The notes under the pieces: generated by a model
The model's database searches: none
What the model saw: only the letters and a program-made list of their open reading frames with translations
What the model was told of the DNA's origin: nothing
In this document: positions 3,756 through 23,407 of the stretch, piece by piece
Layout of the letters: each line of letters opens with the position of its first letter
How positions within the stretch are numbered: the stretch's first letter is position 1
Program-made: the position numbers and the translations under genes
Source of the DNA: Bacteroidota bacterium
GTDB lineage: Bacteria > Bacteroidota > Bacteroidia > UBA4408
Length of the DNA: 64,000 nucleotides
Direction of reading: 5' to 3'
NCBI GenBank assembly: GCA_963169745.1
Contig: CAUJCU010000009.1
Span: forward strand, 124,001 to 188,000

Positions 3756-6700
3756 TTAATGAGTATCTCTTGCGTGTTTAGCTGATCAGTATAAACAAGC
3801 AAAAGCTTTTCAATTTCGTAGCCCATTTGTTCTAATTCTTTTGCATAATTTTTTAACTGTTCAGCATAATGTTCATGGCGCTCACCAGTTTTATAATCGA
3901 TAATACTTATTTTTTGATTCTTTATGGCAACTAAGTCAGGACGTAGAGTGCTTCCATCCGTGAGCAGCAAAGTGTTTTCTTTTCGTAGAAAATAACTTCC
4001 ATCAAAATATTGATTAAGCTCAGGTATAGCCATAATTTCTTCTATTTTTTCATATATTTTTTTATAGTCAAAACCATATTGTTGAATGGTTATTCTGTTC
4101 TTTTTTAAAACCTCAGAAACATCAGTTGATGAGTTAATTTCAGCGAGCAGTTGATGAATAAGATTACCAAAACTAAAAGCTTCATGTTCATTTTCTGAAA
4201 GAATTTTAAATTTTTTCGTTTTTAAATATTTTCGCCAGCTCGTGTTTTCTATAGGCATATTCAAATGCCCGGTCTCTTTCTCGTGATCAGGAGCTAATGC
4301 TTTGTTTTGAATTATTCCATAACTTTGAAAATCTGTTTCTCCAATTTTTGTTGCTTCGAATGAAATTTTTTTACTCTCGATAAAAGAATCCAATAACATA
4401 ATCATTTTGCCCGCTTTATCTGAAATAATAAACAAATGTTCTTCCGGCCGCGTATAAGCCACATATACCATATTGATTATATCCATCATAATTTTTTCTT
4501 TTTCCTGAGAGTATGCCATACTATATGATGACTTATCAAGACTATCGCTGTGGGAAATTAATGTACTTTTTAATTGAGGAAATGCAGGATTATTTATGTT
4601 TACCCAATATTTAACTTCTTGTGCGTTTGTAGGATTAATATTAGCGAAAGGAATAATAACAATAGGAAACTGTAAGCCTTTTGATTTGTGTATGGTTAAA
4701 AGATTGATTGCATCAATTCCCTCAGGTACAGTAATAGAGAGTTCAACTTTTTTAATTTCCCACCAATCAATAAGAAATTGAATATTTTGTTCTTTCTTAT
4801 TCAAATTAAAAACCTGATCCATAAAGAATTTTAGATAAACATTAGGCTTTTGGTTAAACCTAAAAAGAATAATGAGTTCCATACACAACTCAAAAACAGG
4901 TAAACTTTTTAAATATTCGGTATTAAATTTAATGGAGTTTAAATTAAAAAAGCTGATTAGGGCGTTGCTGTTATTTTTCAAACACAATTCGTTATGTTGG
5001 AAATTAAGTTGTGTAATAAAATAATATCTGATAGCTGCAATGCTGATTTGGTTTGCTGGATTCTCGACAAAACGGAGTAACTCAATGATACAACGTACTT
5101 CAAAAGATGAGCTAATAAGTAACGATTCTTTAGAAATAACATCAATTCCAGAGTTTAAAAGATATTGAGCTACTAAACTACTTTGCTTATTTTTTCTAGT
5201 TAAAATGGCTATATCTTTTTTTGCATAACCCTTTTCAAGACATAGATCAATCACCTCTTTTACTCTTTGCAAAATCCAATCAGCTCCAGCTTTATCTTTT
5301 AATGCAATGTGAACAGAACCTTTATTTTCATTTGAAACTATATTTTGTTCTACCTCATTATATATTGAAGAAAAGTCAAAGTCACTTGTTTTTTTTACAC
5401 TCTCAAAAAACAAATTATTGAATTGTACTATGTTGGGCAAGCTGCGGTAGTTGGTATTTAACACTTTCTCTTCAAAACTCCTTTTTAAACTCTTTTCTTG
5501 TTCTAAAAGTGTAGGATTCATTCCCTCTGGAGCATGTAAATTCGGTAATTTTACAAACTGCTCTACTGCGCCATTCCGCCACCGGTAAATAGATTGCTTA
5601 GGATCACCAACTAACATGCTAAAAAAACCTTGTGATAGGGCATTGTGTATCAAGGGCAAAATATTGCGCCATTGTAAAATGGATGTATCCTGAAATTCAT
5701 CAATTAAAAAGGCTTGATACCGCTCTCCTATTTTTTCGTAAATATATGGTGCAGGCTCATTAGCAATTGAAGCTGCAATTAACTTGTTAAACTCACTGAT
5801 AAACAAAATATTATTTTTTTCTTTAAGAGCTTTTATTTCTTTTTTCAGCTCGCGGAGCATTGCCACTAAGAATAAATTAGCTCTTATTGTTTTGAAATCT
5901 AGATATTTTTTCAATTGGTTAGCCAAAAAATCTTGTGTTTCTTGAAATAAGAGAGATAGTTCTGGAGTTATTTTATTAATAACACTTTTTGACTCGGCTT
6001 TAGCTTTTGTGGAATATAAAATTTGTTTATCAAATGCTTTAATGACAGTATCAGTGGGACTTAAATTTTTAGTCCTAAATTCTTTCAGGTAACTGAAGTA
6101 TTTACATACTCCTTTTTCTCCTCCAGCCATATCTTGTAACGGAATAGAATTGCTGTCAATAAGCTGCAGTGCATTTTCTCCATAACTTTCAATTTTATTT
6201 CGGAACTGGGAAATAAACTCGTTTATTTTTTTATTAATTTCAATAAAGTCAGTATGAGTAAGGTGTTCAATTGATTTTAAATTTTCTTCAATTTGTTCAT
6301 TAAACAGTTGTTTCCCAATTTTTTCGAGATTTTTATCAATATTCCAACTCTTGTCATCCTGAAGTTGTTCGTCAATATAGTTCAATAAAACCAGGCTAAC
6401 TTCATTTTCAATCCCTGCTTTCCCTAATACTCGATCCACAGCTAAATGAAGCATTTCATCAGCATCAGTAGCCAAATCAAAATTTATAGGTAATTTTAAT
6501 TCAAAAGCAAAACTGCGTATAATTTTATGGTTAAAACTATCAATAGTACTTACAGCAAAGTTACTATAGTGATGCAAAATGTAGTCTAATGTTTTTTGAG
6601 CCCTTTGTTGCAATTCTATAGATGAAATGTTTTTAGTTTCTCGGATCTCCTGAAACATAATTTTAGACGATCCATTAGGTGCGCCACTGCTGAACTGCTG

Positions 6701-6886
6701 AAGTGTTTTCAGTATTCTTTCTTTCATCTCTGCAGCAGCTTTGTTTGTAAAAGTTATTGCTAGTATATGCTTAATGTTATCTTCTAAAGAAAAACCCAAT
6801 GTCAGTGAAATATACTCTTTAACTATAGTATAAGTTTTTCCTGACCCAGCTGATGATTTATAAATCTTAAAATTTCCTGATCCCAA
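3752..6886 (-). CDS. RecB/AddA-like UvrD-family helicase-nuclease
   Basis: ATP-dependent DNA helicase with a C-terminal RecB-type nuclease, probably processing double-strand breaks for recombination. In 1044 residues: Walker A SSAGSGKT (11-18), motif Ia AITFTNKAA, motif II DEFQD (396-400), motif III GDPKQSIYRWR, motif V TIHKSKGLQFP, motif VI VAYTRPEEHL, then the nuclease centre with D984, D997-Y-K999 (DYKTG) and the QLxxY box (Q1009). The start is a TTG at 6886; no ATG precedes it in frame before a stop, and the next Met (54) would delete Walker A. An AddB/RexB partner is not adjacent. The following gene is an unrelated acyltransferase overlapping by 4 bases. Confidence 0.88.
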   Translation of the reverse strand: MGSGNFKIYKSSAGSGKTYTIVKEYISLTLGFSLEDNIKHILAITFTNKAAAEMKERILKTLQQFSSGAPNGSSKIMFQEIRETKNISSIELQQRAQKTLDYILHHYSNFAVSTIDSFNHKIIRSFAFELKLPINFDLATDADEMLHLAVDRVLGKAGIENEVSLVLLNYIDEQLQDDKSWNIDKNLEKIGKQLFNEQIEENLKSIEHLTHTDFIEINKKINEFISQFRNKIESYGENALQLIDSNSIPLQDMAGGEKGVCKYFSYLKEFRTKNLSPTDTVIKAFDKQILYSTKAKAESKSVINKITPELSLLFQETQDFLANQLKKYLDFKTIRANLFLVAMLRELKKEIKALKEKNNILFISEFNKLIAASIANEPAPYIYEKIGERYQAFLIDEFQDTSILQWRNILPLIHNALSQGFFSMLVGDPKQSIYRWRNGAVEQFVKLPNLHAPEGMNPTLLEQEKSLKRSFEEKVLNTNYRSLPNIVQFNNLFFESVKKTSDFDFSSIYNEVEQNIVSNENKGSVHIALKDKAGADWILQRVKEVIDLCLEKGYAKKDIAILTRKNKQSSLVAQYLLNSGIDVISKESLLISSSFEVRCIIELLRFVENPANQISIAAIRYYFITQLNFQHNELCLKNNSNALISFFNLNSIKFNTEYLKSLPVFELCMELIILFRFNQKPNVYLKFFMDQVFNLNKKEQNIQFLIDWWEIKKVELSITVPEGIDAINLLTIHKSKGLQFPIVIIPFANINPTNAQEVKYWVNINNPAFPQLKSTLISHSDSLDKSSYSMAYSQEKEKIMMDIINMVYVAYTRPEEHLFIISDKAGKMIMLLDSFIESKKISFEATKIGETDFQSYGIIQNKALAPDHEKETGHLNMPIENTSWRKYLKTKKFKILSENEHEAFSFGNLIHQLLAEINSSTDVSEVLKKNRITIQQYGFDYKKIYEKIEEIMAIPELNQYFDGSYFLRKENTLLLTDGSTLRPDLVAIKNQKISIIDYKTGERHEHYAEQLKNYAKELEQMGYEIEKLLLVYTDQLNTQEILIN

Positions 6887-6908
6887 TTTTTGCTCTTTAA
6901 TTATGAGC

Positions 6909-6916
6909 CAAATTTA
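6909..6916 (-). promoter_or_regulatory. -7 promoter box for the helicase-nuclease operon
   Basis: The minus strand reads TAAATTTG, a perfect TAnnTTTG box, about 23 bases before the TTG start codon at 6886. This leaves a short leader and supports that start. The -33 position reads TTAT, a weak match. Confidence 0.5.
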
Positions 6917-7039
6917 TAATTTTAATTCTGGTAATATAATTTTATCATGCAGGTTTTTCGAAGTAAATTGCTGTAAGGACTTAAATTAATCGTTTTCATT
7001 TTATATACTGCTTTTTGTTAAATAAAATTAAAGCATCTA

Positions 7040-7077
7040 TACAATAATTGTATATACAATAATAGTTGCTACATTTG
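7040..7077 (+). promoter_or_regulatory. MarR operon promoter overlapped by a perfect palindrome
   Basis: A perfect -7 box TACATTTG (7070-7077) lies exactly 19 bases after ATTG (7047-7050) at the -33 position. That ATTG is the left end of a perfect 14-bp palindrome, ATTGTATATACAAT (7047-7060). A second overlapping inverted repeat, TACAATAATTGTA, spans 7040-7052. A dimeric regulator bound here would cover the -33 element, which fits autorepression by the MarR protein encoded just downstream. Confidence 0.65.
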
Positions 7078-7081
7078 TGGT

Positions 7082-7531
7082 ATGAAAAAAGAAGAATATA
7101 TAAATCAAAAGAAATTTCATACAGAAGTAGAAAGAGCACTAATTAACATTATGTACACCGCCAGTTGGATTGATTCACTACACATTCAACGTTTAAAACC
7201 GCATAGTTTATCACCGCAGCAGTATAATGTGTTGCGTATATTAAGAGGGGTTTTCCCGGGGAAATTGAAATTGGCAGATATTTCGGAGCGTATGATTGAC
7301 AAAAATTCTAATTCCACAAGGTTGGTTGAAAAGTTGCGTGAAAAAGGTTTTGTAAAAAGAGAACTATGTGAAACCAATCGTAGGCAGGTTGATATTGAAA
7401 TTACAAAAAAGGGGCTTGATACACTTTTGTTGATTGATGAAGAGTCTAAACTTTTTTTTAAAAAATTTAAAACATGTACCAAAAATGATTATGAAGAGTT
7501 AGCCCGCATTTTAGGGTTATTTCGGATCTAG
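7082..7531 (+). CDS. MarR family transcriptional regulator
   Basis: Dimeric winged-helix DNA-binding protein of 149 residues. The wHTH core runs about 45-110: SPQQYNVLRILRG, LADISERMIDKNSNSTRLVEKL (recognition region) and the wing around CETNRRQVDIEITKKG. It heads a probable operon with pirin (39-base gap) and YceI (39-base gap), a set often found together in Bacteroidota. A palindrome overlaps its promoter, suggesting autoregulation. The -7 box ends only 4 bases before the ATG, so the mRNA may be leaderless. No ligand can be inferred. Confidence 0.9.
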   Translation: MKKEEYINQKKFHTEVERALINIMYTASWIDSLHIQRLKPHSLSPQQYNVLRILRGVFPGKLKLADISERMIDKNSNSTRLVEKLREKGFVKRELCETNRRQVDIEITKKGLDTLLLIDEESKLFFKKFKTCTKNDYEELARILGLFRI

Positions 7532-7570
7532 ATACAGGGCAAATTTTATTTTATCTAAACAATACAATTT

Positions 7571-8275
7571 ATGATTAAAGCTCTTTTTTTAAACGAAACA
7601 CGCGGGCATGCAAACCATGGTTGGTTAGACAGTTACCATACTTTTAGTTTTGCTCGTTATTACAATCCGGAGCGTATGAACTTTGGTATGCTTAGAGTTT
7701 TAAATGATGATGTAGTAAAAGGAGGAGCTGGTTTTGGGGCACATTCACATGAACAAATGGAAATTATCTCAATTCCCCTATATGGTACATTACAACATCA
7801 AGACAGTACCGGAACTCAAGGTATAATTAAAGCAGGAGATGTTCAGTTGATGAGTGCCGGCAGCGGAATAGTACACAGTGAAATGAATGCATCTAAAGAA
7901 GATTCGGTTAATTTTTTACAGATTTGGGTAATCCCAAAATCGAAAAACACGCCACCTCGTTACGAACAAAAAACGTTTTTAGCTGCTGAACGTGAAAATA
8001 AAATTCAAACGTTGGTTTCACCGGATGGAACAGGACTTCGTATCAATCAGGATGCTTGGTTTCACCGATGTGATCTTAAACAAGACTTAAGTATTCATTA
8101 TGCGCTTAAAACATCACACAATGGACTATTCTTAATGGTGCTTGAAGGAAGTGTTATGCTTGCTGAACACCACTTAAAAAGACGAGATGCCATAGGTTTA
8201 TCTGCTTTTGAAAAAATACTAATTACTGCAACAGAAAATGCTGAGCTTTTGCTTATAGAAGTTCCTATGAAATAA
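7571..8275 (+). CDS. pirin family bicupin protein
   Basis: Cupin protein of 234 residues. The N-terminal cupin carries the iron-site pattern GAHSHEQMEII (two His) with later GIVHSEMNA (His and Glu), matching the four metal ligands known in pirins. The N-terminal HGWLDSYHTFSFARYYNP is the family signature. Pirin/YhhW proteins can act as quercetin dioxygenases or redox-sensitive regulators; which applies here is unknown. Second gene of the MarR-pirin-YceI group, so probably derepressed together with its neighbours by the MarR ligand. Confidence 0.9.
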   Translation: MIKALFLNETRGHANHGWLDSYHTFSFARYYNPERMNFGMLRVLNDDVVKGGAGFGAHSHEQMEIISIPLYGTLQHQDSTGTQGIIKAGDVQLMSAGSGIVHSEMNASKEDSVNFLQIWVIPKSKNTPPRYEQKTFLAAERENKIQTLVSPDGTGLRINQDAWFHRCDLKQDLSIHYALKTSHNGLFLMVLEGSVMLAEHHLKRRDAIGLSAFEKILITATENAELLLIEVPMK

Positions 8276-9138: not shown

Positions 9139-11514
9139 ATGAAGAGAGTCATAAAAAAAGTTGCCGTATTAGGTTCAGGAGTTATGGGAAGTCGTATTGC
9201 CTGTCACTTTGCAAATATTGGGGTTCAGGTTTTATTATTGGATATTGTTCCAAAAGATGCGGATACTTCCAAAAAGTCACGAAATAAAATAGTTGATGAT
9301 GCTTTGGCTTTTGCTCTAAAATCGAACCCTTCGCCTATTTACAAAAAGTCGTTTTCAGCGCGAATTACTACCGGAAACTTTGAGGATAATATGGCAGATA
9401 TATCTGATTGTGATTGGGTTATTGAAGTAGTTGTAGAAAGGCTTGATATTAAAAAACAAGTTTTTGAACAGGTAGAAAAATACCGTAAAGCTGGCACCTT
9501 AATTACCAGTAATACTTCGGGCATTCCAATTCATTTTATGATTGAAGGCAGGAGCGAAGATTTTCAGAAACATTTCTGTGGAACACATTTTTTTAATCCA
9601 CCACGCTACTTAAAATTACTGGAAATAATACCTACATCTCAAACGAAAGCTGAAGTAATTGATTTTTTAAGCCATTATGGTGATTTGTATTTAGGGAAAA
9701 CAACTGTTATTTGTAAAGACACACCTGCATTTATAGCCAACCGAATTGGTGTTTACGGTATTATGGCTCTTTTTCATTTGGTTGAAAAATTAGATTTGAG
9801 TATTGAAGAAGTTGATAAATTAACCGGCCCTGTTTTAGGCCGCCCTAAATCGGCTACTTTCAGAACTTGTGATGTTGTAGGTTTAGACACTTTAGTGCAT
9901 GTTGCCAACGGGGTAGCACAAAGTTGCCCTCATGATGAGGCCATTGATGTCTTCCGAATTCCATCATACATCACCAAAATGATGGAAAATAAATGGCTAG
10001 GAGCCAAAAGTGATCAAGGATTTTTTAAGAAAGCTAAAGGAAGTGACGGAAAAAGTGAAATTCATGCATTAGATTTAAAAACGTTGGACTATAAGCCTAT
10101 GCAAAAGGTAAAATTTGCAACTTTGGAAAGCACTAAATCTATTGATAGTTTAAAAGAACGCATTGGGGTACTTATGACCGGAAAGGACAAAGCCGGGGAG
10201 TTTTACCGTCAATCTTTTTACGGTTTGTTTGCCTATGTTAGCAATCGTATTCCTGAGATTTCTGATGATATATATAAAATTGATGACGCTATGAAAGCCG
10301 GGTTTGGTTGGGAACTTGGGCCTTTTGAATATTGGGATGCGGTAGGTGTTGCTACTACAGTTGAGGCAATGGAAACTGCCGGATATAAGGTTGCCCTTTG
10401 GGTAAAGGAGATGTTACAATCCGGTTGTCAGTCTTTCTATACTATAAAAGACAGCAAACCTTATTACTATGATACCACTAATAAGAAAGCATATTCTCAA
10501 ATTCCAGGCTCCGATTCCTTTATCTTACTTTCACAGGTTAGCAATAAAACTATATGGAAGAATGCCGGTACAAGTATTACCGATATAGGAGATGGAATTA
10601 TTAATGTAGAATTTCACTCAAAAATGAACAGTATTGGAGGCGAAGTTATAGCAGGAGTGAACAAAGCAATAGATCTTGCTGAAAAAGATTTTGCCGGAAT
10701 AGTTATCAGTAATGAAGGTGCTAATTTTAGTGCCGGTGCTAATGTAGGTATGATATTTATGATGGCCGTAGAGCAGGAATATGACGAGTTGAATTTTGCT
10801 ATTAAAGCTTTCCAAAATACGATGATGCGTTGTCGCTATGCAGCTGTTCCTGTTGTTGTTGCTCCTCATAATATGGCCTTGGGAGGATCATGTGAAATGG
10901 CCATGCATTCTGATAAAGTTGTGGCACATGCTGAAACTTACATTGGTTTAGTAGAATTTGGTGTTGGCCTTATACCCGGTGGAGGAGGCACTAAAGAGTT
11001 TGCACTTCGCCTATCAGATGAACTAAGTGAGGGCGATATTGAGTTAAACCGCTTTAGAGAACGTTTTTTAACTATTGGTCAAGCTAAAGTTTCCACTTCT
11101 GCATACGAGGCATTTGATTTAGGGTACCTAAGAAATGGTCAGGATGAAGTGGTACTTTCACGTAATCGCCTCTTAAGCACTGCTAAGCAAGCTTGTTTGC
11201 AGTTAGCTGCAAAAGGCTATACGCCACCAGTTAAGCGAAAAGATATTAAAGTACTAGGAAAACAGGCCTTAGGATTAGCTTATTTAGGTGCCAATTCTAT
11301 GCTTAATGGTCATTATATTAGTGAGCACGATGCTAAAATATCTCAGAAATTAGCCTATGTTATTTGTGGTGGCGATTTGTCTGCACCATCATTTGTTTCA
11401 GAGCAATATTTACTTGATTTGGAACGGGAAGCTTTTCTTAGCTTATGTGGTGAAAAGAAAACATTAGAAAGATTACAATCTATACTAACCGGAGGTAAAA
11501 TTTTGAGAAACTAG
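9139..11514 (+). CDS. 3-hydroxyacyl-CoA dehydrogenase / enoyl-CoA hydratase fusion
   Basis: Bifunctional fatty-acid beta-oxidation enzyme: hydrates the enoyl-CoA and oxidises the hydroxyacyl-CoA with NAD. Domain order is dehydrogenase first and hydratase last, the reverse of E. coli FadB and normal for Bacteroidota. The NAD site VAVLGSGVMGSRIA is at 8-21, with the catalytic region FCGTHFFNPPRYLKLLEI. The crotonase domain lies about 490-700 with the oxyanion-hole FSAGANVG and the catalytic loop VEFGVGLIPGGGGTKE. It has 791 residues and is followed after 35 bases by the thiolase. No acyl-CoA dehydrogenase gene is adjacent. Confidence 0.93.
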   Translation: MKRVIKKVAVLGSGVMGSRIACHFANIGVQVLLLDIVPKDADTSKKSRNKIVDDALAFALKSNPSPIYKKSFSARITTGNFEDNMADISDCDWVIEVVVERLDIKKQVFEQVEKYRKAGTLITSNTSGIPIHFMIEGRSEDFQKHFCGTHFFNPPRYLKLLEIIPTSQTKAEVIDFLSHYGDLYLGKTTVICKDTPAFIANRIGVYGIMALFHLVEKLDLSIEEVDKLTGPVLGRPKSATFRTCDVVGLDTLVHVANGVAQSCPHDEAIDVFRIPSYITKMMENKWLGAKSDQGFFKKAKGSDGKSEIHALDLKTLDYKPMQKVKFATLESTKSIDSLKERIGVLMTGKDKAGEFYRQSFYGLFAYVSNRIPEISDDIYKIDDAMKAGFGWELGPFEYWDAVGVATTVEAMETAGYKVALWVKEMLQSGCQSFYTIKDSKPYYYDTTNKKAYSQIPGSDSFILLSQVSNKTIWKNAGTSITDIGDGIINVEFHSKMNSIGGEVIAGVNKAIDLAEKDFAGIVISNEGANFSAGANVGMIFMMAVEQEYDELNFAIKAFQNTMMRCRYAAVPVVVAPHNMALGGSCEMAMHSDKVVAHAETYIGLVEFGVGLIPGGGGTKEFALRLSDELSEGDIELNRFRERFLTIGQAKVSTSAYEAFDLGYLRNGQDEVVLSRNRLLSTAKQACLQLAAKGYTPPVKRKDIKVLGKQALGLAYLGANSMLNGHYISEHDAKISQKLAYVICGGDLSAPSFVSEQYLLDLEREAFLSLCGEKKTLERLQSILTGGKILRN

Positions 11515-11549
11515 ATAAAAAAAATACTTTAAATTAATTCAAAAATATT

Positions 11550-12725
11550 ATGAATGCATATATAGTAGCAGCTTTCAGAACAGCCGTAGGAAAAGCCAAT
11601 AGAGGAGGCTTACGATTTACTCGTCCTGATGAAATGGCAGCAACAGTAATTAAACAACTTATGAAATCAGTTCCTTCTGTGAATGAAGAGCAAGTAGATG
11701 ATTTAATTGTTGGAAATGCCATGCCAGAAGCTGAACAAGGATTGAATATGGGGCGCTTAATTTCTCTGATGTCTTTTCAAACGGATAAAATAAGTGGTAT
11801 GACTGTGAATAGATACTGTGCTTCAGGGTTGGAAACAATTGCAATTGCTTCGTCAAAAATTCATTCAGGAATTGCCGATTGTATAATTGCTGGAGGTGCA
11901 GAAAGTATGAGTCTTATACCAATGGGAGGATGGAGAATTGTGCCTCATGCTGATGTTGCTTTAGCACATCCGGATTATTATTGGGGTATGGGTTTAACTG
12001 CTGAGGCTGTTGCACGAGAGTATCAAGTAAGTCGTGAAGAGCAAGATAAATTTTCTTTACTTTCACATCAAAAAGCAGTTCAAGCCATTAAAAGCAATAA
12101 GTTTAAAGATGAAATTGTTCCTATAACCGTTGAGGAAACTTATATAGATGAGAGCCAAAAGAAAAGTAAAAGAACTTTTGTAGTAGATACAGATGAAGGG
12201 CCGCGGGCCGACACAAGTTTAGAAGTATTGTCAAAATTAAAGCCTGTGTTTGATGCCAAAGGCACAGTAACTGCCGGAAATTCATCGCAAACTAGCGATG
12301 GTGCAGCATTTGTAATGGTTGTAAGTGAAAAGTTTTTAAAAGAAAATAACCTTACGCCTATTGCTCGTATGGTTAGTTTTGCCAGCGCAGGGGTTCCTCC
12401 TCGAATTATGGGAATTGGCCCAATAGCTGCTATACCTAAGGCATTAAAACGTGCTGGTCTTCAAAAAAATCAAATTGACCTAATTGAGTTAAACGAAGCC
12501 TTTGCTTCACAATCTCTGGCAGTAATCAAAACTTTAGATTTAAATCCTGAAATTATTAATGTTAATGGAGGGGCTATTTCACTTGGTCATCCATTGGGTT
12601 GCTCAGGAGCTAAACTTTCTGTTCAAATATTTAATGAACTGAAACGTCAGAAAAAGAAATATGGTTTGGTAACTATGTGTGTAGGCACTGGACAAGGTGC
12701 AGCCGGAATTTTTGAGATGCTTTAA
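11550..12725 (+). CDS. fadA: acetyl-CoA C-acyltransferase (3-ketoacyl-CoA thiolase)
   Basis: Cleaves 3-ketoacyl-CoA to acetyl-CoA and a shortened acyl-CoA, the last step of beta-oxidation. The nucleophile is C90 in NRYCASGLE; the C-terminal catalytic boxes are GHPLGCSGAK (His) and MCVGTGQGAAG (Cys). Length 391 is typical. It is the second gene of the operon with the dehydrogenase/hydratase fusion. The symbol follows its beta-oxidation context; an acetoacetyl-CoA thiolase of the same family cannot be fully excluded. Confidence 0.92.
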   Translation: MNAYIVAAFRTAVGKANRGGLRFTRPDEMAATVIKQLMKSVPSVNEEQVDDLIVGNAMPEAEQGLNMGRLISLMSFQTDKISGMTVNRYCASGLETIAIASSKIHSGIADCIIAGGAESMSLIPMGGWRIVPHADVALAHPDYYWGMGLTAEAVAREYQVSREEQDKFSLLSHQKAVQAIKSNKFKDEIVPITVEETYIDESQKKSKRTFVVDTDEGPRADTSLEVLSKLKPVFDAKGTVTAGNSSQTSDGAAFVMVVSEKFLKENNLTPIARMVSFASAGVPPRIMGIGPIAAIPKALKRAGLQKNQIDLIELNEAFASQSLAVIKTLDLNPEIINVNGGAISLGHPLGCSGAKLSVQIFNELKRQKKKYGLVTMCVGTGQGAAGIFEML

Positions 12726-13195: not shown

Positions 13196-13897
13196 ATGAA
13201 TAAACAAATTGCAAAAAACGGAATGTTGGGTACATTGATTGGAAGGAAAATGCTTATGGGAATAACAGGTATGTTTCTTATTTTATTTCTAGTCGTTCAT
13301 TGTGCTGTTAATGCCTTAATCTTTGTTAATGATGGAGGAGAACTCTTTAACAAAGGTGCTGAATTTATGGGAACTAATATATTAATAAGAATTGTTGAGG
13401 TAGTATTGTTTGTTGGGATATTAGTACACATTGTAGATGGCATTATGTTGGAACGCTTAAACAGACAAAAGCGTACTGTGCCATATGTGAGCCACAACCC
13501 TCAAGCTAATAGTAAATGGTATAGCCGTTGGATGGGACTTTTAGGAATTTTGATTTTAATGTTTTTAATTGTTCACTTAAAGCATTTTTGGGTATTAAGT
13601 CGTTTTACAGATCATATTGCCCATAGTGAAATGGACAAACTTCCTGGACAGGAAACTTTATTTTATGAAATGAAGGAAGTGTTTGAAAACCCTGCGGTTG
13701 TTTTAATATATGTACTTGCTATGATTGGTTTATCTTATCATCTTATGCATGGCTTTCAATCAGCCTTTCAAACAATGGGATGGAATCATCCTAAATATAC
13801 ACCATGTATTAAACAAGCGGGCTTTTGGTTCTCCATCATTGTTCCCTTTGTGTTTGCATTAATGCCTATTGCTATGTACACAGGCATTATTAAATAA
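13196..13897 (+). CDS. sdhC: succinate dehydrogenase cytochrome b subunit
   Basis: Single membrane anchor of the five-helix (type B, b558) succinate:quinone oxidoreductase, carrying two haems b and the quinone site. Five hydrophobic segments are visible in 233 residues, with conserved His candidates in [25 protein letters not shown] and SYHLMHGF. First gene of sdhCAB; sdhA follows 46 bases later. In Bacteroidota this enzyme uses menaquinone and can work as succinate dehydrogenase or fumarate reductase. Confidence 0.93.
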
Positions 13898-13943
13898 CTT
13901 ATTGCACTCAAGTAATCACACTATATTTTTCAATACAAATATT

Positions 13944-15860
13944 ATGGCAATTTTAGATTCAAAGATACCCGATGGCTCACTTGAAACCAAGTGGAGTAAT
14001 TATAAATCACATATAAAACTGGTAAATCCATCCAACAAAAGAAAATTAGAGATCATAGTTATTGGTACCGGTTTGGCTGGTTCATCTGCTGCGGCCAGTC
14101 TTGCAGAACTAGGATACAAGGTAAAAGCCTACTGTTATCAAGATAGTCCTCGTAGAGCGCACTCTATTGCTGCTCAAGGAGGAATAAATTCGGCTAAGAA
14201 TTACAAAAATGATGGAGATAGTGTTTACCGCTTATTTTACGATACTGTAAAAGGAGGTGATTTCAGATCACGTGAAGCCAATGTATATCGTTTAGCTGAA
14301 GTAAGTACTGCTATAATTGACCAATGTGTAGCTCAAGGAGTGCCATTTGCCCGTGAATATGGCGGATTGCTTGACAACCGATCCTTTGGGGGCGCTCAGG
14401 TATCACGAACATTTTATGCTCGCGGGCAAACAGGGCAGCAATTGCTGTTAGGGGCATACTCAGCTTTAAGCCGACAAATAGGCCTAGGAAATGTACAAAT
14501 GTTCAACCGTCACGAAATGGTGGAATTAGTTGTTATTGACGGAAAAGCACGAGGAATTATTGCCCGAAACTTAACCAATGGAAAGTTAGAACGACATTTT
14601 GGACATGCTGTTGTGTTAGCTACTGGAGGCTACGGTAATGTGTTTTTTCTAAGCACTAATGCTATGGGCTGTAATGTAACTGCAGCATGGAAAGCACATA
14701 AAAAAGGTGCTTTTTTTGCTAATCCTTGTTACACACAAATTCATCCTACATGTATTCCCGTTTCGGGCGATTATCAATCTAAGTTGACTTTAATGAGTGA
14801 ATCCTTACGAAATGATGGACGTGTTTGGGTTCCTAAAAAGCAAGGTGATAAAAGAAAGCCTATTGATATTCCTGAAGATGAAAGAGATTATTATTTGGAA
14901 CGTAAATATCCAAGTTTTGGAAACTTAGCTCCACGTGATATTTCGTCACGTGCTGCTAAAGAAGCTTGTGATGATGGTAGAGGAGTAGGAGAGTCGGGGT
15001 TAGCTGTTTATCTTGATTTTGCAGATGCTATAAAACGATTAGGAAAAGATGTTATAGAAGCTCGTTATGGAAATTTGTTTGATATGTATAAACACATTAC
15101 CAATGAAGATCCGTACCAAGTACCGATGCGTATTTACCCAGCTGTTCACTATACCATGGGAGGCATTTGGGTTGATTATAATTTAATGACTACTGTCCCC
15201 GGCTTGTATGCCACAGGTGAGTGTAATTTTAGTGATCATGGAGCCAACCGTTTAGGAGCTAGCGCATTAATGCAAGGCCTAGCCGATGGCTACTTCGTAT
15301 TGCCTTATACCATTGGCGATTATTTATCTGGCGAAATTTTTACCAAAGCAATTCCAACCGATCATCCTGCTTTTTTGGAAGCTGAAAAGCAGGCTAAGGA
15401 AAGAATTGATAAGCTTTTATCCATTAAAGGAAAAAAATCGGTAGATGATTTTCATAAGGCATTAGGAAAAATTATGTGGGAATACTGCGGTATGGCTCGT
15501 AATGCTGAAGGTTTAGCAAAAGCCAAGCAAATGGTTAGGCAACTTCGTGACGAATTTTGGAAAGATGTTAAAGTTACCGGTGAGGCAGATGAACTGAATG
15601 TAGATTTGGAAAAGGCCGGACGAGTGGCTGATTTTATGGAACTTGGAGAACTGATGATTGATGATGCCCTTGATCGTAATGAAAGTTGTGGGGCACATTT
15701 TAGAGTTGAATATCAGGAAGAAGGTGAAGCCAAACGAAATGATGAAAAATATGCCTATGTGGCTGCTTGGGAGCATAAAGGAGTGGGCGAAAATTCAGTT
15801 TTACATAAAGAACAATTAGTATTTGAGAATGTGCATTTTGCTACACGTTCATACAAATAA
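13944..15860 (+). CDS. sdhA: succinate dehydrogenase / fumarate reductase flavoprotein subunit
   Basis: Catalytic subunit with covalent FAD, 638 residues from the ATG at 13944 ([12 protein letters not shown]). An upstream ATG-less extension from 13869 overlaps sdhC and is unlike the family. The FAD dinucleotide motif is [13 protein letters not shown]; the FAD-linking histidine is in [12 protein letters not shown]; the active-site region includes QIHPTCIP and the C-terminal [18 protein letters not shown]. Lies between sdhC and sdhB (25-base gap). Confidence 0.95.
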
Positions 15861-15885
15861 TTATTAATAAATTATTAGAACAATT

Positions 15886-16626
15886 ATGAAATTCAATTTA
15901 AAAATATGGCGTCAGAAAAACGCCTCAACACCCGGAAAAATAGTTGATTATTCCATTGATAACATTAACGAACACATGTCATTTTTAGAAATGATGGATG
16001 TTTTGAACGAACAACTTATTCATAAAGGAGAGCCTCCTGTAGCTTACGACCATGATTGTCGCGAAGGAATTTGTGGAATGTGCAGTATGCATATTAACGG
16101 AAGGCCACATGGCCCTTTGGCAGCAACAACTACTTGTCAACTATATATGCGAAACTTTAAGGATGGAGAAACGATATACATTGAACCTTTTCGAGCTAAC
16201 TCCTTTCCGGTTATTCGTGATTTAGTTGTTGACCGTAGTGCTTTTGACCGTATTATGCAAGCCGGAGGATTTGTTTCAGTTAACACCGGTTCAGTACAAG
16301 ATGCCAACAATATTCCAGTTAATAAGCAACATGCCGATTTGGCTATGGATGCTGCAGCGTGTATTGGTTGTGGAGCTTGTGTGGCAGCCTGTAAAAACTC
16401 ATCGGCCAGCTTGTTTGTTAGCGCTAAAATATCACAACTTGCATTATTGCCTCAAGGGCAAGTAGAAGCTAAAGAAAGAGTTTTGGCAATGGTGAACCAA
16501 ATGGATGAAGAAGGTTTTGGAAGTTGTACTAACACTGGGGCTTGTGAGGCAGAATGTCCAAAAGAAATATCGATTTCCAATATTGCCCGTATGAATCGTG
16601 AATATTATATAGCTTCATTAACGTAA
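15886..16626 (+). CDS. sdhB: succinate dehydrogenase / fumarate reductase iron-sulfur subunit
   Basis: Electron-transfer subunit of 246 residues with three clusters. The [2Fe-2S] site is [15 protein letters not shown] plus a later Cys (TTCQLYM). The [4Fe-4S] and [3Fe-4S] ligands are in [15 protein letters not shown] and [15 protein letters not shown]. It passes electrons between the FAD subunit and the haems of SdhC. Last gene of the operon, with a strong terminator 17 bases after the stop. Confidence 0.95.
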
Positions 16627-16709: not shown

Positions 16710-18632
16710 TTATTTTAATTGTTGAATTTGCCCATCTGTAAAAGAAATAATAGTGCCGTCCATTTTACTCAACTTAATATTTTTCAAGAGTTGTACTTTA
16801 TCAGGAAAAGCTGTTTCTTTTACCTCTACATTAACAATAGAATCTAAAGTAGCTATTTCTTTATAAACAAAAATTGAAATATCTTTTCGTAAACCTCTAG
16901 GAGAATACTCCTGATTGAAAAGTACTTGCCCTTGAGCAGTGCTTACTTTTACTTGAATGGAACTGCGACTCTTAACAACAGGTTTTAAAGATTGCATTTG
17001 CATTTGCTTGTTAGCAGTTGTTTCCATAAAGGCTGTTGGAGACGAGATATACTTAAAGTTTAAGATGAGTAAATTTTCATCTTTATTAAAGAAAGACAAC
17101 TTGGTGTTGCTAAGTATGGGCATTGCCAAAAAGAAAATACAGATAATAATAATTGATAGAAAATGGTTTGTTTTAGAATAGTCAAGTACTTTCAACATTC
17201 CTCTTCCTTTTTCTTTATCATCCGGAGGGTTATTTAGGGTTTCAACAAATTCTGTTACACGATTTTCAGAATAATGATTAGTTGTAATGAGTTGAATTTT
17301 ATTTATAGGTGCCTTTTTAGAAATAAAAGGAGGGCGTTTACGATTTAACCGGGCAATAGCTAAATCGCGACCATATCGATAATAACAATCTTCGCAGCCT
17401 AGTAATAAAACTCCGTCTGCTTGTCCATTTAAGCTTTGTTCCACATCTTTCATGTGTAAATCACCTAAACAAGGAAGAATTTGCTTGGTATATGTGATGC
17501 CATCTGGCAATTTAACATCATCAAACTGAGAGCACGAGTACACTTTTAATTTTTTGTTATCAGGTAATGGCAAAGGATTAAACTCGGGCATCCCGGGCAT
17601 GGTTATAGCAAATTCTTTACATGAAGCCAAACAAATTCCGCAGCTAATACATTTATCGGGGTCTAATATAGCCTTGCGCTCTCCTTTATATATAAGCATA
17701 TCAATTGCTCCATAAGGGCAATCTTCGGAACAGATGTTACAAGCATCGCATTTATCTAAATCAATTACTGCAGGTTTTTTCTTCTTCTTAAAGAAAAAAG
17801 GTACTAAAGCCAACCCTGTTCCTGATATGAGCATTATAGCCCAGTTCATTGGTACAGAAACAATTTTCATTAAAGCATATCCGAAAAAATAGTACCAATC
17901 AAATGTTGTATTGTAAGGAATGAATCGCTCTTGAGCCGATGGGTCGCTTTTTACAGGAAATACAATACACACAACAACAAGCGCAATGAGCGAGTATATC
18001 CACAAAATACGAGGTGAAAAAACTCTAGGCTTTGCCAGTCGCATCACATGAAGCCACAAAACAATAACCAAAAATATTGAAAAGAATATATGACCGAATA
18101 CAGACACTTTAAAGAATCCACCAATAGTTTCGAGATTATTGGAAATAAAAGAACCTGCAATAGAAGGGTCAAAAAGAGGGAGAGCAGTAAAAAATTTGGC
18201 AGTTAAATAACCAATTAATTTTCCTTTTTCATCCCAAACTAAAATAAAGCCGGTTATTCCAATAATTAATACCACCATTAAAGAAATAATACCACTTACC
18301 CATGATAAGATTCGTTTGAATTTACCGGTGAGCAAGGTTTGAACAAAATGGAGTACTATAAAAATTACCAGTAAGTCACTACTATAACGATGCATACTTC
18401 TAATTACACCGTTAAATGGATTGGCAGAAAGGCGCTCTACTGAATTGTAGGCATGTGCTGGATCAATGTCATAAAATAGAAAAATATAAATACCGCTGAT
18501 ACATGCAATAATAAACATGAGTACAGCAAGGTTTCCAAGATGATAAAGGGGGTTGTATTGTGAGGCGTAAATTTTGCTAAAAATACCGGCAAATCGTTGA
18601 AATAACCAATGGTTAGGTTTTTTGTTACTCAT
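16710..18632 (-). CDS. cytochrome b / ferredoxin / MvhD-like fusion protein
   Basis: 640 residues with an unusual domain chain. Residues 30-200 are a four-helix b6/bc1-type cytochrome b with bis-His haem pairs H81-H181 and H95-H195 (each in-helix spacing 14). Residues 205-280 resemble the start of subunit IV, but the Qo-site PEWY motif reads FDWY (244-247). A KKKKK stretch (282-286) then places two 4Fe-4S sites in the cytoplasm (C295/C298/C301/C305 and C328/C331/C334/C338). Residues 363-425 look like the hydrogenase delta subunit MvhD (C367, C388, C413, C416). A transmembrane helix (488-507) leads to a probable periplasmic domain. Last gene of the haem-copper operon, overlapping the SCO gene by 4 bases. 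It likely exchanges electrons between a cytoplasmic donor and quinone; this is inference. Confidence 0.75.
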   Translation of the reverse strand: MSNKKPNHWLFQRFAGIFSKIYASQYNPLYHLGNLAVLMFIIACISGIYIFLFYDIDPAHAYNSVERLSANPFNGVIRSMHRYSSDLLVIFIVLHFVQTLLTGKFKRILSWVSGIISLMVVLIIGITGFILVWDEKGKLIGYLTAKFFTALPLFDPSIAGSFISNNLETIGGFFKVSVFGHIFFSIFLVIVLWLHVMRLAKPRVFSPRILWIYSLIALVVVCIVFPVKSDPSAQERFIPYNTTFDWYYFFGYALMKIVSVPMNWAIMLISGTGLALVPFFFKKKKKPAVIDLDKCDACNICSEDCPYGAIDMLIYKGERKAILDPDKCISCGICLASCKEFAITMPGMPEFNPLPLPDNKKLKVYSCSQFDDVKLPDGITYTKQILPCLGDLHMKDVEQSLNGQADGVLLLGCEDCYYRYGRDLAIARLNRKRPPFISKKAPINKIQLITTNHYSENRVTEFVETLNNPPDDKEKGRGMLKVLDYSKTNHFLSIIIICIFFLAMPILSNTKLSFFNKDENLLILNFKYISSPTAFMETTANKQMQMQSLKPVVKSRSSIQVKVSTAQGQVLFNQEYSPRGLRKDISIFVYKEIATLDSIVNVEVKETAFPDKVQLLKNIKLSKMDGTIISFTDGQIQQLK

Positions 18633-19405
18633 ATATCTATACTTTCTTCTTTGTTCTTAGAATATAAACTTTTAATTAAAAAATAACCAACTATAATAAT
18701 AAACATAAATCCTGCTGAGGTTTGCATAATAAAACGCCAGTCAAGATGATATGATTTGGAAGCCGGATTAAAGGTAAAACACCGTACATATAGTGAAGTA
18801 AAAAAATTGTTTACGGAAGATTTTTCGATTTGTGCCTCCATAATTGCCAATTTTAAATCTTTGGCCTTAGGCTCAATCCCATATATATATCTGGAAATTC
18901 TGCCACTCGGTGTAACAATTATAACTACGTTAGGATGTAAATATTCTTTACTTTGTTCGTCATAATCATAATGATAATCAACAGAGTTCAGGATGTTTTT
19001 TATATCAGAAGCTGATCCGGTAACTGTTTTCCAGTTTTTTCCATCCATTTTCCAACGCTGTTCAAATCCTTTCAAATCTTCGTTTGTGTCCGTTGTATCA
19101 AATGAGAATGAAACGATGGTGTAATCTTGTCCAAGCCCTCCAATTTCAGCTATAGCTTTTTGCAAACCATTGCTGATTAACGAGCAGGCCATTGGGCATT
19201 TGGTGTAAACAGGCGACAAAACTAAAGGTTTCCCATTTTGCAGGTCGAGCAAACGAGTCTGATTCCCTTTGGAATCACGCACCATGGCATTTTCAACTTT
19301 TCGTGAAATGTATCTTTTCTCGTCAGGTAAATCAAAAGATGAGAGCGTAAAAAACAGGCTTAGTATAACTACTAAGCCTGTGTATTTAGATTTTAAAAAA
19401 AGCAC
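18629..19405 (-). CDS. SCO1/SenC family copper chaperone-like protein
   Basis: Membrane-anchored thioredoxin-fold protein that in the family helps load CuA of haem-copper reductases. 258 residues: signal/anchor at 9-24, the copper site C70-P-M-A-C74 (CxxxC) and the third ligand H157 (YLHPNVV), plus a C-terminal transmembrane helix (about 228-248) that many SCO proteins lack. The usual proline after the second Cys is absent (CSL, not CPL). Its place between subunit I and the cytochrome b fusion fits assembly of the CuA site in the neighbouring subunit II. Confidence 0.85.
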   Translation of the reverse strand: MLFLKSKYTGLVVILSLFFTLSSFDLPDEKRYISRKVENAMVRDSKGNQTRLLDLQNGKPLVLSPVYTKCPMACSLISNGLQKAIAEIGGLGQDYTIVSFSFDTTDTNEDLKGFEQRWKMDGKNWKTVTGSASDIKNILNSVDYHYDYDEQSKEYLHPNVVIIVTPSGRISRYIYGIEPKAKDLKLAIMEAQIEKSSVNNFFTSLYVRCFTFNPASKSYHLDWRFIMQTSAGFMFIIIVGYFLIKSLYSKNKEESIDI

Positions 19406-19429: not shown

Positions 19430-21097
19430 CTATTTAACCCACCATGTTGCCGCCAACCATTTCCAGTTAACAAAGTACAACACGGCAAAGGTAGCAAGAA
19501 AAAGGAAAGTTAGCACTAAAGTTCCAGGAGCTTCAAATCCTTTATGTTCTTTTGCTGCAGGGGCTAAAGGAGAGATAGTTAACTGCATATCTTCAGGACC
19601 ATTTACTTTAGGTCCAAAGAAAACAGATACGACAACTTGTAATACCCAAAGCAGCGCGGCCAAAAAGGCTAATACACCGCCAAGCATCATAAGTACCCAA
19701 AAGAAGTCAACAGCAGGGTTAAATGAGTGTGTAAAAGGGCCACCACTAAATGAAGAGTCCCAATGTCTGCGAGGCACTCCTAATTGCCCTAAGGCAATCA
19801 TAGAAACCGATAAGATGGCAATGCCGAAGAAGAATAACCATGGCTGAATTTGAGCCAATTTGAAAGCCACAATCTTTCTACGGAATATAAGCGGAATTAA
19901 ATAATAGGTAATACCCATAAAAGTAAGTGTAGTTCCAATAACTACAGTGCCTTTAAAGTGACCGGGAATGGCAATCGTATTATGAACAATAATATTGGTC
20001 TGCTCCATTCCAAAAATAACTCCGGTAGTACCACCAATAAATCCAAATCCTATAGCTGCCAAAACACAAGATGCAAAAGCAGGATTTGACCATGGGGCTT
20101 TTGCCAACCATTCAAACAAACCTTTATTAAATCCCCATCTGCGTTGTGCTGATTCAATAGAACTAGGAACAGCAAAGGCATGAATCATAGAAGCTAATAC
20201 AGCTAAGTACATAGCATAGGAGGTGTTCCATACTTTCCAGGCCGAACTTGTAGCAGGGTCGGTTAGTAAGTGGTGTGCAGAAGCTAAGCTAATAAATAAA
20301 ATATACAAGAAGAAAGCAGTTCTGGATACCCTTTCATTGATAGAAGTACCTCCAATAGCAAGAAACGTAGTGAGATACCAAATACTTACCATTGCGGCCA
20401 CATTTATTTGCTGTGATGAGTGACCAAGACCCCACCAAATTAGCTTGTAAACTGCAGGGTCAACCGAGTCAATAATTCCTAATGACCATAAAAATGTAGG
20501 AATATAAATAATGGCTCCCGAAGCTAGCGTAATTACTGCTAGTATGGCAGCAGTCATTAATCCATAAGTAAATAATGGAAGTGTTTCACCTACATTCTTA
20601 TCTCTTTTAGCATTTACAATGTTGGCAAAAAACAAACCCACTCCAATTAGTGCCCCAACGGCAAACAAAATAATTCCCAGATAATATAGTGGATGGGCTT
20701 TAAGAGGTACATAAGAGGTAAGCATTACATCAGCTTTACCCATAAGCACCATTACATCGGATAGAATTAAGCCGGCCACCATTAATATAAAGGTAAGCCA
20801 CCCCAGTTTAGGAGAGCAAAATTTTTGATTAAGCACTACTGTAGAACCAAAATAAAGCCCGGCTATTTCAAAAAATACAATCCAATAGATGAGTGCATTA
20901 AGTCCATGAAATGTGGTAAGACGGTAATACCATTCTGCATCCAAAAGGTGTACAGGCTGATATCGAGTAAAAATTAACAGAATTGCCGCAACAATTGCCA
21001 TTAATAGGGAAACAACAGCCATTACGGCATTTAACCTGATTAATTTTTCTGAAGTCAGGTCAACTTTAAATCCAGTTATATCGCATGTTCTAAACAT
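19430..21097 (-). CDS. haem-copper reductase subunit I, B-family, altered active site
   Basis: 555-residue catalytic subunit with about 13 membrane helices. It aligns with ba3-type cytochrome c oxidase: low-spin haem His H64 (FHGLNAL), CuB ligands H226 (LGHSSQQ) and H275/H276 (SAHHLLTDP), high-spin haem His H380 (IPGHFKG). Two key positions differ. The cross-linked tyrosine four residues after H226 is Q230, and the second low-spin haem His, normally two residues after H380 (GHFH), is K382. The lost tyrosine recalls the nitric-oxide-reductase branches of the superfamily, so O2 reduction should not be assumed. Flanked by a CuA subunit and a SCO protein; FNR-like box upstream of the operon. Confidence 0.85.
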   Translation of the reverse strand: MFRTCDITGFKVDLTSEKLIRLNAVMAVVSLLMAIVAAILLIFTRYQPVHLLDAEWYYRLTTFHGLNALIYWIVFFEIAGLYFGSTVVLNQKFCSPKLGWLTFILMVAGLILSDVMVLMGKADVMLTSYVPLKAHPLYYLGIILFAVGALIGVGLFFANIVNAKRDKNVGETLPLFTYGLMTAAILAVITLASGAIIYIPTFLWSLGIIDSVDPAVYKLIWWGLGHSSQQINVAAMVSIWYLTTFLAIGGTSINERVSRTAFFLYILFISLASAHHLLTDPATSSAWKVWNTSYAMYLAVLASMIHAFAVPSSIESAQRRWGFNKGLFEWLAKAPWSNPAFASCVLAAIGFGFIGGTTGVIFGMEQTNIIVHNTIAIPGHFKGTVVIGTTLTFMGITYYLIPLIFRRKIVAFKLAQIQPWLFFFGIAILSVSMIALGQLGVPRRHWDSSFSGGPFTHSFNPAVDFFWVLMMLGGVLAFLAALLWVLQVVVSVFFGPKVNGPEDMQLTISPLAPAAKEHKGFEAPGTLVLTFLFLATFAVLYFVNWKWLAATWWVK

Positions 21098-21106
21098 AGT
21101 TCTTTA

Positions 21107-22033
21107 TTATTTAAGTGATTTAATATAGGCAGTTACCTGCTTAATTTCATTAGGGGTAAGATTCATTTGTGCCATTGGAGTTTTCTCAAATCCAACAACA
21201 ATTTGCTTCTGTGGTTCATTAATAGATGAAGCAATGTAATCATCATTTACATCTACTTGTTTTACTTGGCCATTTTCGGTCACTTTTGCTTGCGAACCAT
21301 ATAACCCGTTAAAAGCAGGACCTATAAGCGCTGTGCCGTCTGTTTTGTGACAAGCATTACAACCTTTTAAATTATAAATTGTTTCACCTCCTTTAACAAG
21401 CTGATCCTCACTCCATGCAGATATATCTTCAGGAGCAGCAGTTTCTGTCGTTTTAGGTGGAGCGCTCATTTTGTCATAACCATATTTGGCCATATCGGCA
21501 TCGCTGTCAATAACTACAATTTTTCCAATCATGGTATGGTGCCCAATTCCACAAAATTCATTACAAATTATTTTGGCTTCACCCGATACAGTTGGCTTGA
21601 ATTTCAAAACATAATCATAGTCAGGATAAACTTGAAAATTCATATTTGAAGGTTGTAATGAAAAACCATGTACCAAATCTTTAGATGAAATATGGATATT
21701 GTACCATTCATCTTTTTTAAGTACTAATACCGGAGACCAACGCCACATTTGAGCGAGCAAAACAACATCACTGCCTGGTTCTGGTTTAACCACAGGAATT
21801 CCGTTGTCCATTCCAATCATATTCTTTTTAACGTAGGCATCGTGCAGGTTTGAAAACTCTATAGGATTTGTTTTATAAGTGGTATTTGATGGATTTTGGT
21901 TACCGACTACGTGCCACATAACCATCCATACAAAAAGAAAAATACAAACAATAAAAGATATGATAATCCACATCCTTTCATCTTTGGATACTTTTTTATT
22001 AAACCACCCTTTTTCTGGTGCTATTAATGTCAT
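21107..22033 (-). CDS. haem-copper reductase subunit II with CuA and a fused cytochrome c
   Basis: Electron-entry subunit of 308 residues. One membrane anchor (about 22-42) is followed by a periplasmic cupredoxin domain with the full CuA set H122, C157, E159, C161, H165, M168 (CNEFCGIGHHTM). A C-terminal cytochrome c domain has CNACH (C225, C228, H229) and a methionine ligand M287 or M290 in TPMAQM. The covalent cytochrome c means it need not dock a soluble cytochrome. It lies 9 bases upstream of subunit I and 18 bases after the small subunit. Confidence 0.92.
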   Translation of the reverse strand: MTLIAPEKGWFNKKVSKDERMWIIISFIVCIFLFVWMVMWHVVGNQNPSNTTYKTNPIEFSNLHDAYVKKNMIGMDNGIPVVKPEPGSDVVLLAQMWRWSPVLVLKKDEWYNIHISSKDLVHGFSLQPSNMNFQVYPDYDYVLKFKPTVSGEAKIICNEFCGIGHHTMIGKIVVIDSDADMAKYGYDKMSAPPKTTETAAPEDISAWSEDQLVKGGETIYNLKGCNACHKTDGTALIGPAFNGLYGSQAKVTENGQVKQVDVNDDYIASSINEPQKQIVVGFEKTPMAQMNLTPNEIKQVTAYIKSLK

Positions 22034-22588: not shown

Positions 22589-23407
22589 ATGGAACAGTAC
22601 ATTGGGCTTATACCTTTAGGATTTGCTGTAGGCACTTTAGGAACACTAATTGGTGCCGGAGGAGGCTTTATTCTGGCACCTGTGCTTCTTTTGGTTTATC
22701 CGGATAAAAGCCCTGAAACAATTACGAGTATTTCATTAGCAGTTGTTTTTTTTAATGCCTTTTCGGGTTCATTAGCCTATCGCAAAATGAAACGTATAGA
22801 TTATAAATCGGGATGGCTGTTTGCTATAGCAACTGTTCCGGGAGCAATACTTGGGGCATATACTACAACTATTATCCCTCGTCAGCTTTTTAATGGAATT
22901 TTTGGAATTTTGTTAGTCCTTACTGCCCTGTTTTTAATACTTCATCCTGAAAAGAAAAACAAGAATGAAAATGATACAGATTCATTTCTTATAGCTCGTA
23001 GAATAATGGATGCAAACGGGCAGATATATACTTATAAATATAACCCCTGGCTGGGCTTTTTGTTGAGCATTGGGGTAGGTTATTTATCTAGCTTATTAGG
23101 AATAGGTGGAGGCATTATTCATGTTCCGATTTTAGTACAACTATTGAATTTTCCTACTCATATTGCAACGGCAACTTCTCATTTTATTTTGGCCATTATG
23201 GCAGGTACAGGTTCTTTGGTGCATCTTTTTCAGGGTTCTTTAACTGAAGGTATTTATCAAACAATTGCCCTTTCTGTTGGTGTTCTTTTTGGGGCTCCTT
23301 TAGGAGCACGCTTTTCCAAAAAAATTCAAGGTGTATGGATTATTCGTAGCCTAGCCATAGCTTTAGGTTTGGTTGGTTTGAGAATTTTATTGATGATATT
23401 TAAATAA
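22589..23407 (+). CDS. TauE/SafE family membrane transporter
   Basis: 272-residue membrane protein of the TauE/SafE (DUF81) family, putative exporters of sulfite or organosulfonates. It has about eight hydrophobic segments in two repeats, with the two glycine-rich repeat signatures GTLIGAGGGFILAPVLLL (about 19-36) and SLLGIGGGIIHVPILV (about 168-183). Divergent from the haem-copper operon and monocistronic. The substrate is not evident from context. Confidence 0.88.
   Translation: MEQYIGLIPLGFAVGTLGTLIGAGGGFILAPVLLLVYPDKSPETITSISLAVVFFNAFSGSLAYRKMKRIDYKSGWLFAIATVPGAILGAYTTTIIPRQLFNGIFGILLVLTALFLILHPEKKNKNENDTDSFLIARRIMDANGQIYTYKYNPWLGFLLSIGVGYLSSLLGIGGGIIHVPILVQLLNFPTHIATATSHFILAIMAGTGSLVHLFQGSLTEGIYQTIALSVGVLFGAPLGARFSKKIQGVWIIRSLAIALGLVGLRILLMIFK

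Follow-up and report, generated by a model that had tools for sequence, protein, structure and literature searches.

A conserved cytochrome b, ferredoxin and MvhD-like fusion protein as a candidate electron conduit of one branch of eNOR operons

We describe a protein in which a bc-type cytochrome b, two [4Fe-4S] ferredoxin motifs and an MvhD-like domain are joined in one chain. Judged from sequence, its gene is a conserved one, co-inherited with one eNOR branch in many bacterial phyla, and not a one-off fusion. eNOR, which was characterised recently, reduces nitric oxide, may pump protons in doing so and contributes N2O, a greenhouse gas. We propose, at slightly better than even confidence, that the fusion is a transmembrane quinone/Fe-S conduit, Rieske-free and bc-type, dedicated to this eNOR branch. 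The support that can be read directly in the sequences consists of the domain string, the invariant ligands, the eNOR operon, the co-inheritance, the lack of any need for a Rieske protein and the presence of NuoF in one clade.

Results

The fusion gene and its eNOR operon

The gene was found in a stretch of 64,000 nucleotides of a Bacteroidota genome, here called the window. The open reading frame of 640 aa runs on the minus strand, from 18632 to 16710 in window coordinates; a plus-strand reading of 16710-18632 was ruled out by stops throughout. The gene order on the minus strand is CuA subunit II with a cytochrome c domain, haem-copper subunit I, SCO1 and the fusion, with the following features.

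16710..18632, minus strand: fusion gene (bc-type cytochrome b, two [4Fe-4S], MvhD-like domain, transmembrane helix, periplasmic beta-domain); 640 aa, stop included
17787..18632, minus strand: residues 1-282, cytochrome b membrane part with di-haem ligands H81/H181 and H95/H195 (Pfam Cytochrome_B, conservation, bc1 fold with Z about 24)
17889..17903, minus strand: residues 244-248, FDWYY at the PEWY (Qo) position, Asp245 invariant (93-sequence alignment)
17598..17768, minus strand: residues 289-345, two [4Fe-4S] ferredoxin motifs, predicted cytoplasmic side (Pfam Fer4, eight invariant Cys, KKKKK ahead)
17223..17555, minus strand: residues 360-470, MvhD/FlpD-like domain with C367, C388, C413 and C416 (Pfam FlpD)
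17109..17165, minus strand: residues 490-508, last transmembrane helix (AlphaFold2 model)
16713..17108, minus strand: residues 509-640, periplasmic beta-sandwich domain (models; a separate gene in many relatives)
18629..19405, minus strand: SCO1/SenC copper chaperone (PF02630), its stop overlapping the fusion ATG (ATGA)
19430..21097, minus strand: predicted eNOR subunit I, a haem-copper reductase of the B family in which Gln stands in for the cross-linked Tyr (GHSSQQ; alignment, profile)
21107..22033, minus strand: predicted eNOR subunit II, CuA motif (CNEFCGIGHHTM) and fused cytochrome c domain (CNACH; profile, motif)

In Pfam searches, Cytochrome_B matched residues 19-158 of the fusion (5.7e-18) and Fer4 matched twice, around residues 289-340. 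FlpD, the MvhD family, matched residues 386-434 with 26.7 bits against a curated cut-off of 22.3, and 61 of 63 family members were matched (best 5.5e-21). The first-pass annotation had assigned residues 360-425 to MvhD and had named a failed match there as grounds for dropping the assignment; the FlpD matches above cut-off uphold it. No second FlpD protein was found in a profile search of the window genome. Since a KKKKK run stands at residues 282-286, the positive-inside rule would place the Fe-S domain in the cytoplasm. A succinate dehydrogenase/fumarate reductase-type operon (cytochrome b, flavoprotein, Fe-S; window 13196-16626, plus strand) is convergent with the fusion gene and ends about 80 bp from it, and a TauE/SafE-type transporter gene (window 22589-23407, plus strand) is divergent from the eNOR operon.

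Subunit I aligned best with the B-family ba3 oxidase of T. thermophilus (164 bits), the CuB His being kept and the cross-linked Tyr replaced by Gln. Gln at this position is the criterion for eNOR (PMC8756737), an enzyme that has been biochemically characterised according to PMC11388526. The first-pass annotation had placed the fusion in an operon with a haem-copper reductase, which is so, without seeing that the reductase is an eNOR, a predicted nitric oxide reductase. All 64 loci covering the site keep this Gln together with the Cu and haem His (HQHHHH), for which reason an oxygen reductase was rejected as the neighbour of the fusion. NirK, above cut-off in a profile search of the window genome, could make NO for eNOR, and a NorQ-type gene lies near the fusion in L063; both are circumstantial for NO reductase activity. 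A Rieske protein, noted at first as absent nearby, was found nowhere in the 99.96% complete window genome (G000). An NrfD-family protein encoded there might belong to an alternative complex III.

Conserved ligands and a bc1-like fold

Conservation was assessed on an alignment of 93 homologues of the fusion. The proposed haem ligands H81, H95, H181 and H195, paired as H81/H181 and H95/H195 from the outset, are invariant (93/93), as are all eight ferredoxin Cys (93/93). Three of the MvhD cysteines (C367, C388 and C413) are likewise invariant; the fourth, C416, is kept in 80 of the 93 homologues. Profiles and conservation thus agree with the initial observation of ferredoxin and MvhD cysteines in a single 640-residue chain. 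The PEWY position reads hydrophobic-D-W-[FYW]-Y with few exceptions, D245 being present in 93/93; in the pocket next to it W133 and D134 are invariant, and R198, three residues past the bN ligand, is kept in 92/93.

The 14-residue spacing between H181 and H195 in helix D is one that we take to be bc1-like and not b6-like, and in this respect the b6-type label given to the haem pairs does not hold. The nearest PDB sequences, on the other hand, are those of cytochrome b6 (2zt9), in keeping with that label.

The AlphaFold2 model of the fusion (63 sequences) had a mean pLDDT of 90.7 and a pTM of 0.89, and its structural matches were the cytochrome b of bc1 and b6f (Foldseek, VIA-align: E 7e-7; Z 23.9, rmsd 2.8 over 252 residues). 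The further membrane helix and periplasmic domain described earlier were recovered in the model as a helix at residues 490-508 followed by a beta-domain at 510-640. Many structural alignments span fusion residues ~12 to 519 and target residues up to about 347, and from these end points helix 490-508 appears to stand in for the C-terminal helix of bc1 cytochrome b. On this reading, the Fe-S/MvhD part would have been inserted into a cytoplasmic loop. The description of a partial subunit IV in which PEWY has become FDWY was accurate for the motif, FDWYY occupying the place of PEWY, but "partial" understates a bc1 fold that apparently extends through the last helix.

Modelled alone, the periplasmic end domain formed a beta-sandwich (pLDDT 92.1), whose fold matches were weak and mixed (best Z 8.1, best Foldseek E 0.003), which does not by itself make the fold new. 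Its best-conserved positions are R, P, G and D, and the family alignment holds no conserved Cys, His or other metal ligands in this domain. The weak, mixed matches and the lack of conserved Cys/His led us to reject the domain as a redox carrier. This weighs against the conduit reading, as a cofactor-free beta-domain gives no redox path to eNOR.

Distribution and co-inheritance with eNOR

A scan of 84,980 GTDB species genomes with the family alignment yielded at least 570 confirmed fusion loci. The relatives sampled, the best 80 of these at least 570 and mostly MAGs, belong to Bacteroidota, Nitrospirota, Nitrospinota, Pseudomonadota, Verrucomicrobiota, Calditrichota and Planctomycetota, with one archaeal MAG; the cultured Thioalkalivibrio denitrificans (L084) is among the carriers, with two copies. 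A chance or assembly fusion was rejected because the same string occurs in 93 sequences from many phyla, and a rare fusion because of the number of loci. No fusion was found on viral contigs. Lineages differ in whether the end domain is part of the fusion or encoded by its own gene, and every short form has such a gene in its locus.

Among the 52 loci with flanks of 5.5 kb or more on each side, 50 had an eNOR subunit I; the two loci without a nearby eNOR speak against the conduit reading. Pairwise protein distances of the fusion, eNOR, SCO and the CuA subunit were correlated with r 0.90-0.94 (58 loci), values to which shared ancestry contributes, the permutation test ignoring kinship. The search for the domain string and its neighbourhood across Bacteroidota, proposed in the first-pass annotation, gave the full string in 9 of 395 genomes, with eNOR adjoining the fusion in 9/9. 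eNOR itself occurs in 16 of the 395, of which the fusion carriers are nine; the remaining seven have a more distant eNOR (41-44% identity, also with Gln) and no fusion. In the five of these seven genomes whose surroundings were read (L134-L138, in G112, G065, G381, G413 and G139), a second distant eNOR branch has the CuA motif and neither the fusion nor a local SCO beside it. As the CuA motif occurs in both kinds of locus, its presence or absence was rejected as the cause of fusion-less eNOR loci. Because 7 of 16 eNOR-bearing Bacteroidota genomes do without the fusion and eNOR has its own CuA input, the fusion would be an accessory to eNOR. A Rieske protein was also absent from the fusion genomes G189 and G225, both 99% complete, and with three near-complete fusion genomes (G000, G189, G225) lacking one, the fusion needs no Rieske.

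Several further genes were observed in these loci. Tandem diverged cytochrome b/Fe-S/MvhD copies with no NuoF between them occur in Gammaproteobacteria (L084:7818-9563 and 10196-11761; L098:4478-6061 and 6113-7735). A divergent COX1-like protein is fused to SCO within the eNOR operon of a Cyclobacteriaceae MAG (L046:4624-6636), and a divergent COX1-family protein of ~470-505 aa recurs beside eNOR operons (L139:14194-15606, L140:3342-4808, L102:1613-3052, L058:11102-12616). The recurring COX1-family protein of this size gave no NCBIfam match where tested.

SCO as the usual neighbour

SCO lies directly upstream of the fusion in 55 of the 67 loci with enough sequence. This most regular of immediate neighbours fits a maturation role at least as well as a conduit. 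As a maturation factor, like CcoG or NosR, the fusion would bring reducing power through the membrane and keep copper or the disulfide of SCO reduced for CuA and CuB insertion into eNOR, the periplasmic domain docking SCO. All five fusion-less eNOR loci checked also lack a local SCO, and the order of elements along the chain (membrane helices, 2x[4Fe-4S], a last helix, a periplasmic beta-domain) is reminiscent of CcoG, which is paired with cupric reductase in the literature found. Yet eNORs without the fusion and a local SCO still carry the CuA motif, and two transmembrane haems, a conserved Qo-like motif and NuoF exceed the needs of a CcoG; no FixG/CcoG Pfam family was among the matches of 63 members, a missing match that counts for little. 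The SCO neighbour and the CcoG-like layout keep maturation in consideration, as a reading we find unlikely. The strand, the eNOR type, the wide spread of the fusion and SCO as its usual neighbour were all missing from the first-pass annotation.

A NuoF gene beside the fusion in one clade

A gene that bears on the conduit reading is NuoF, which adjoins the fusion in six loci (L053, L054, L058, L062, L063 and L094; Nitrospinota, Nitrospirota and one deltaproteobacterial MAG) and stands between two fusion copies where those loci are complete enough. The NuoF of L058 has Complex1_51K (FMN-binding) and NADH_4Fe-4S domains (Pfam), and eNOR is found in the same locus in L053, L058 and L063. In a quick tree, the fusions of the six loci formed one branch (SH-aLRT 99). 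A rhodanese-like gene follows on the other strand in the NuoF loci (Pfam-tested in L053).

The NuoF clade is the strongest hint that the Fe-S/MvhD face may exchange electrons with NAD(H). It is no evidence for Bacteroidota, in which neither NuoF nor another partner gene was seen near the fusion, the window locus included, and its restriction to one clade counts against the conduit reading. NuoF was found in 16 of the 18 fusion-carrying genomes checked, most of which probably have a complex I. We rejected the idea that a second, free NuoF serves the fusion of the window genome, where the single NuoF match may belong to complex I.

Direction of electron flow

The first-pass annotation had suggested a direct route from a cytoplasmic donor to the quinone pool or the reductase. 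The route is also our best reading, with support from NuoF; the part assigned to a donor is close to evenly balanced, and we lean slightly to flow from quinol to the cytoplasm, paid for by NO reduction. Two schemes, one for each direction, fall within the conduit proposal.

If the conduit worked as a dissipative dehydrogenase, electrons would pass from NADH or ferredoxin through the Fe-S clusters and haems b to quinone at the periplasmic-side site, removing NO without pumping. The NuoF gene in the operon of one clade agrees with this direction, as does the fact that dehydrogenases or hydrogenases are the normal electron sources of MvhD, and the scheme is chemically simple, Fe-S to haem b to quinone being the standard electron order. 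It would, however, spend membrane potential in genomes most of which probably have complex I, and we regard it as doubtful. The same energy loss caused this direction to be judged unlikely for anammox complexes (PMC12954380).

Conversely, quinol could be oxidised at the DWFY site with bifurcation, one electron going to the high-potential eNOR chain, whose cytochrome c or CuA would stand in for Rieske, and the other through haems b and Fe-S to NAD+ or a low-potential carrier. The NuoF clade, the cytoplasmic Fe-S in place of a second quinone site and the conserved Asp at the Qo position are consistent with such a scheme. The NO/N2O couple is a very strong oxidant, and NO reduction could pay for the NAD(P)+ step. 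The logic follows a proposal for the anammox Rieske/cytochrome b-NAD(P) oxidoreductase complexes, in which quinol electrons would be bifurcated and the step from menaquinol to NAD(P)+ takes about 250 mV (PMC12954380). Against it stand the lack of a Rieske or other high-potential carrier in the fusion protein, the near-complete fusion genomes without any Rieske and the periplasmic domain without conserved metal ligands. Because a high-potential one-electron acceptor, the role of Rieske in the anammox complexes, is missing here, we hold bifurcation to be improbable.

Discussion

In the conduit model, the fusion would be the subunit that wires electrons in one branch of the eNOR operons, with its cofactors, topology, partner and electron direction all as predictions. 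Two bound haems b would cross the membrane; H81/H181 would hold the periplasmic one, close to an altered quinone site, and H95/H195 the cytoplasmic one. DW[FY]Y replaces PEWY at the periplasm-side Qo-like site; at the opposite, cytoplasmic face, two [4Fe-4S] clusters and the MvhD-type domain would take the place of the second quinone site of a bc complex. Electrons would move between clusters and haems, and the MvhD-type domain would hand them to, or take them from, a cytoplasmic carrier, which may be NAD(H) via NuoF in one clade. The periplasmic beta-domain probably docks the conduit, in a putative physical complex, to eNOR, its cytochrome c or SCO. Precedents are the membrane link made by MvhD in Sporomusa (PMC9430772) and the anammox Rieske/cytochrome b complexes, which carry an NAD(P) oxidoreductase at their cytoplasmic side (PMC12954380).

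No description or role of the fusion was found in the literature searched, a set that did not include the main eNOR paper (PNAS 2024). Although public genomes contain the domain string, an electron wire linked to NO reduction is apparently undescribed. The conserved, co-inherited subunit suggests that many bacteria wire NO reduction to the cytoplasmic redox pool with no bc complex in between. Were electrons to flow out to NAD+, this would be a new site of quinone-based bifurcation and NO respiration would directly make reducing power; if they enter from NADH, it would be a direct route of NO detoxification. If the fusion serves copper insertion, it would represent a maturation reductase of a new class.

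The fusion shares its fold, four haem His and a Qo-like pocket with the cytochrome b of bc1 and b6f, and differs in having no Rieske or cytochrome c1/f, in DW[FY]Y for PEWY and in the cytoplasmic Fe-S/MvhD insertion before the last helix. Lacking both PEWY and a Rieske partner, it is not counted as a member of the Rieske/cytochrome b complexes, though it would work like part of one. The cupric reductase CcoG/RdxA of cbb3 operons resembles the fusion in having helices, 2x[4Fe-4S] and, after one more helix, a periplasmic beta-domain, and in its position near an oxidase-type operon; the fusion differs from it in its bc-type haem b and its MvhD domain, and none of the Pfam matches of 63 members was CcoG-specific. 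ExtP (NF040969), the b-type cytochrome of selenite/tellurite operons, is the best NCBIfam match to the membrane part (1.9e-24), below cut-off (86.6 bits against 290) and covering fusion residues 27-203 only. With the MvhD/FlpD delta subunit, known from Mvh-Hdr and as a membrane link in S. ovata MetVF-HdrCBA-MvhD (PMC9430772), the fusion has the domain and its cysteines in common, here joined to cytochrome b; no HdrA, hydrogenase or formate dehydrogenase partner genes were seen in the operons read. The anammox complexes Kuste4569-4574 and Kustd1480-1485 (PMC12954380) also wire cytochrome b to cytoplasmic Fe-S and are tied to nitrogen-oxide reduction. A possible counterpart of their NAD(P) oxidoreductase subunit is NuoF, in the clade of six loci only, and whereas they have Rieske, subunit IV and multihaem c subunits, the fusion is one chain, with MvhD and eNOR.
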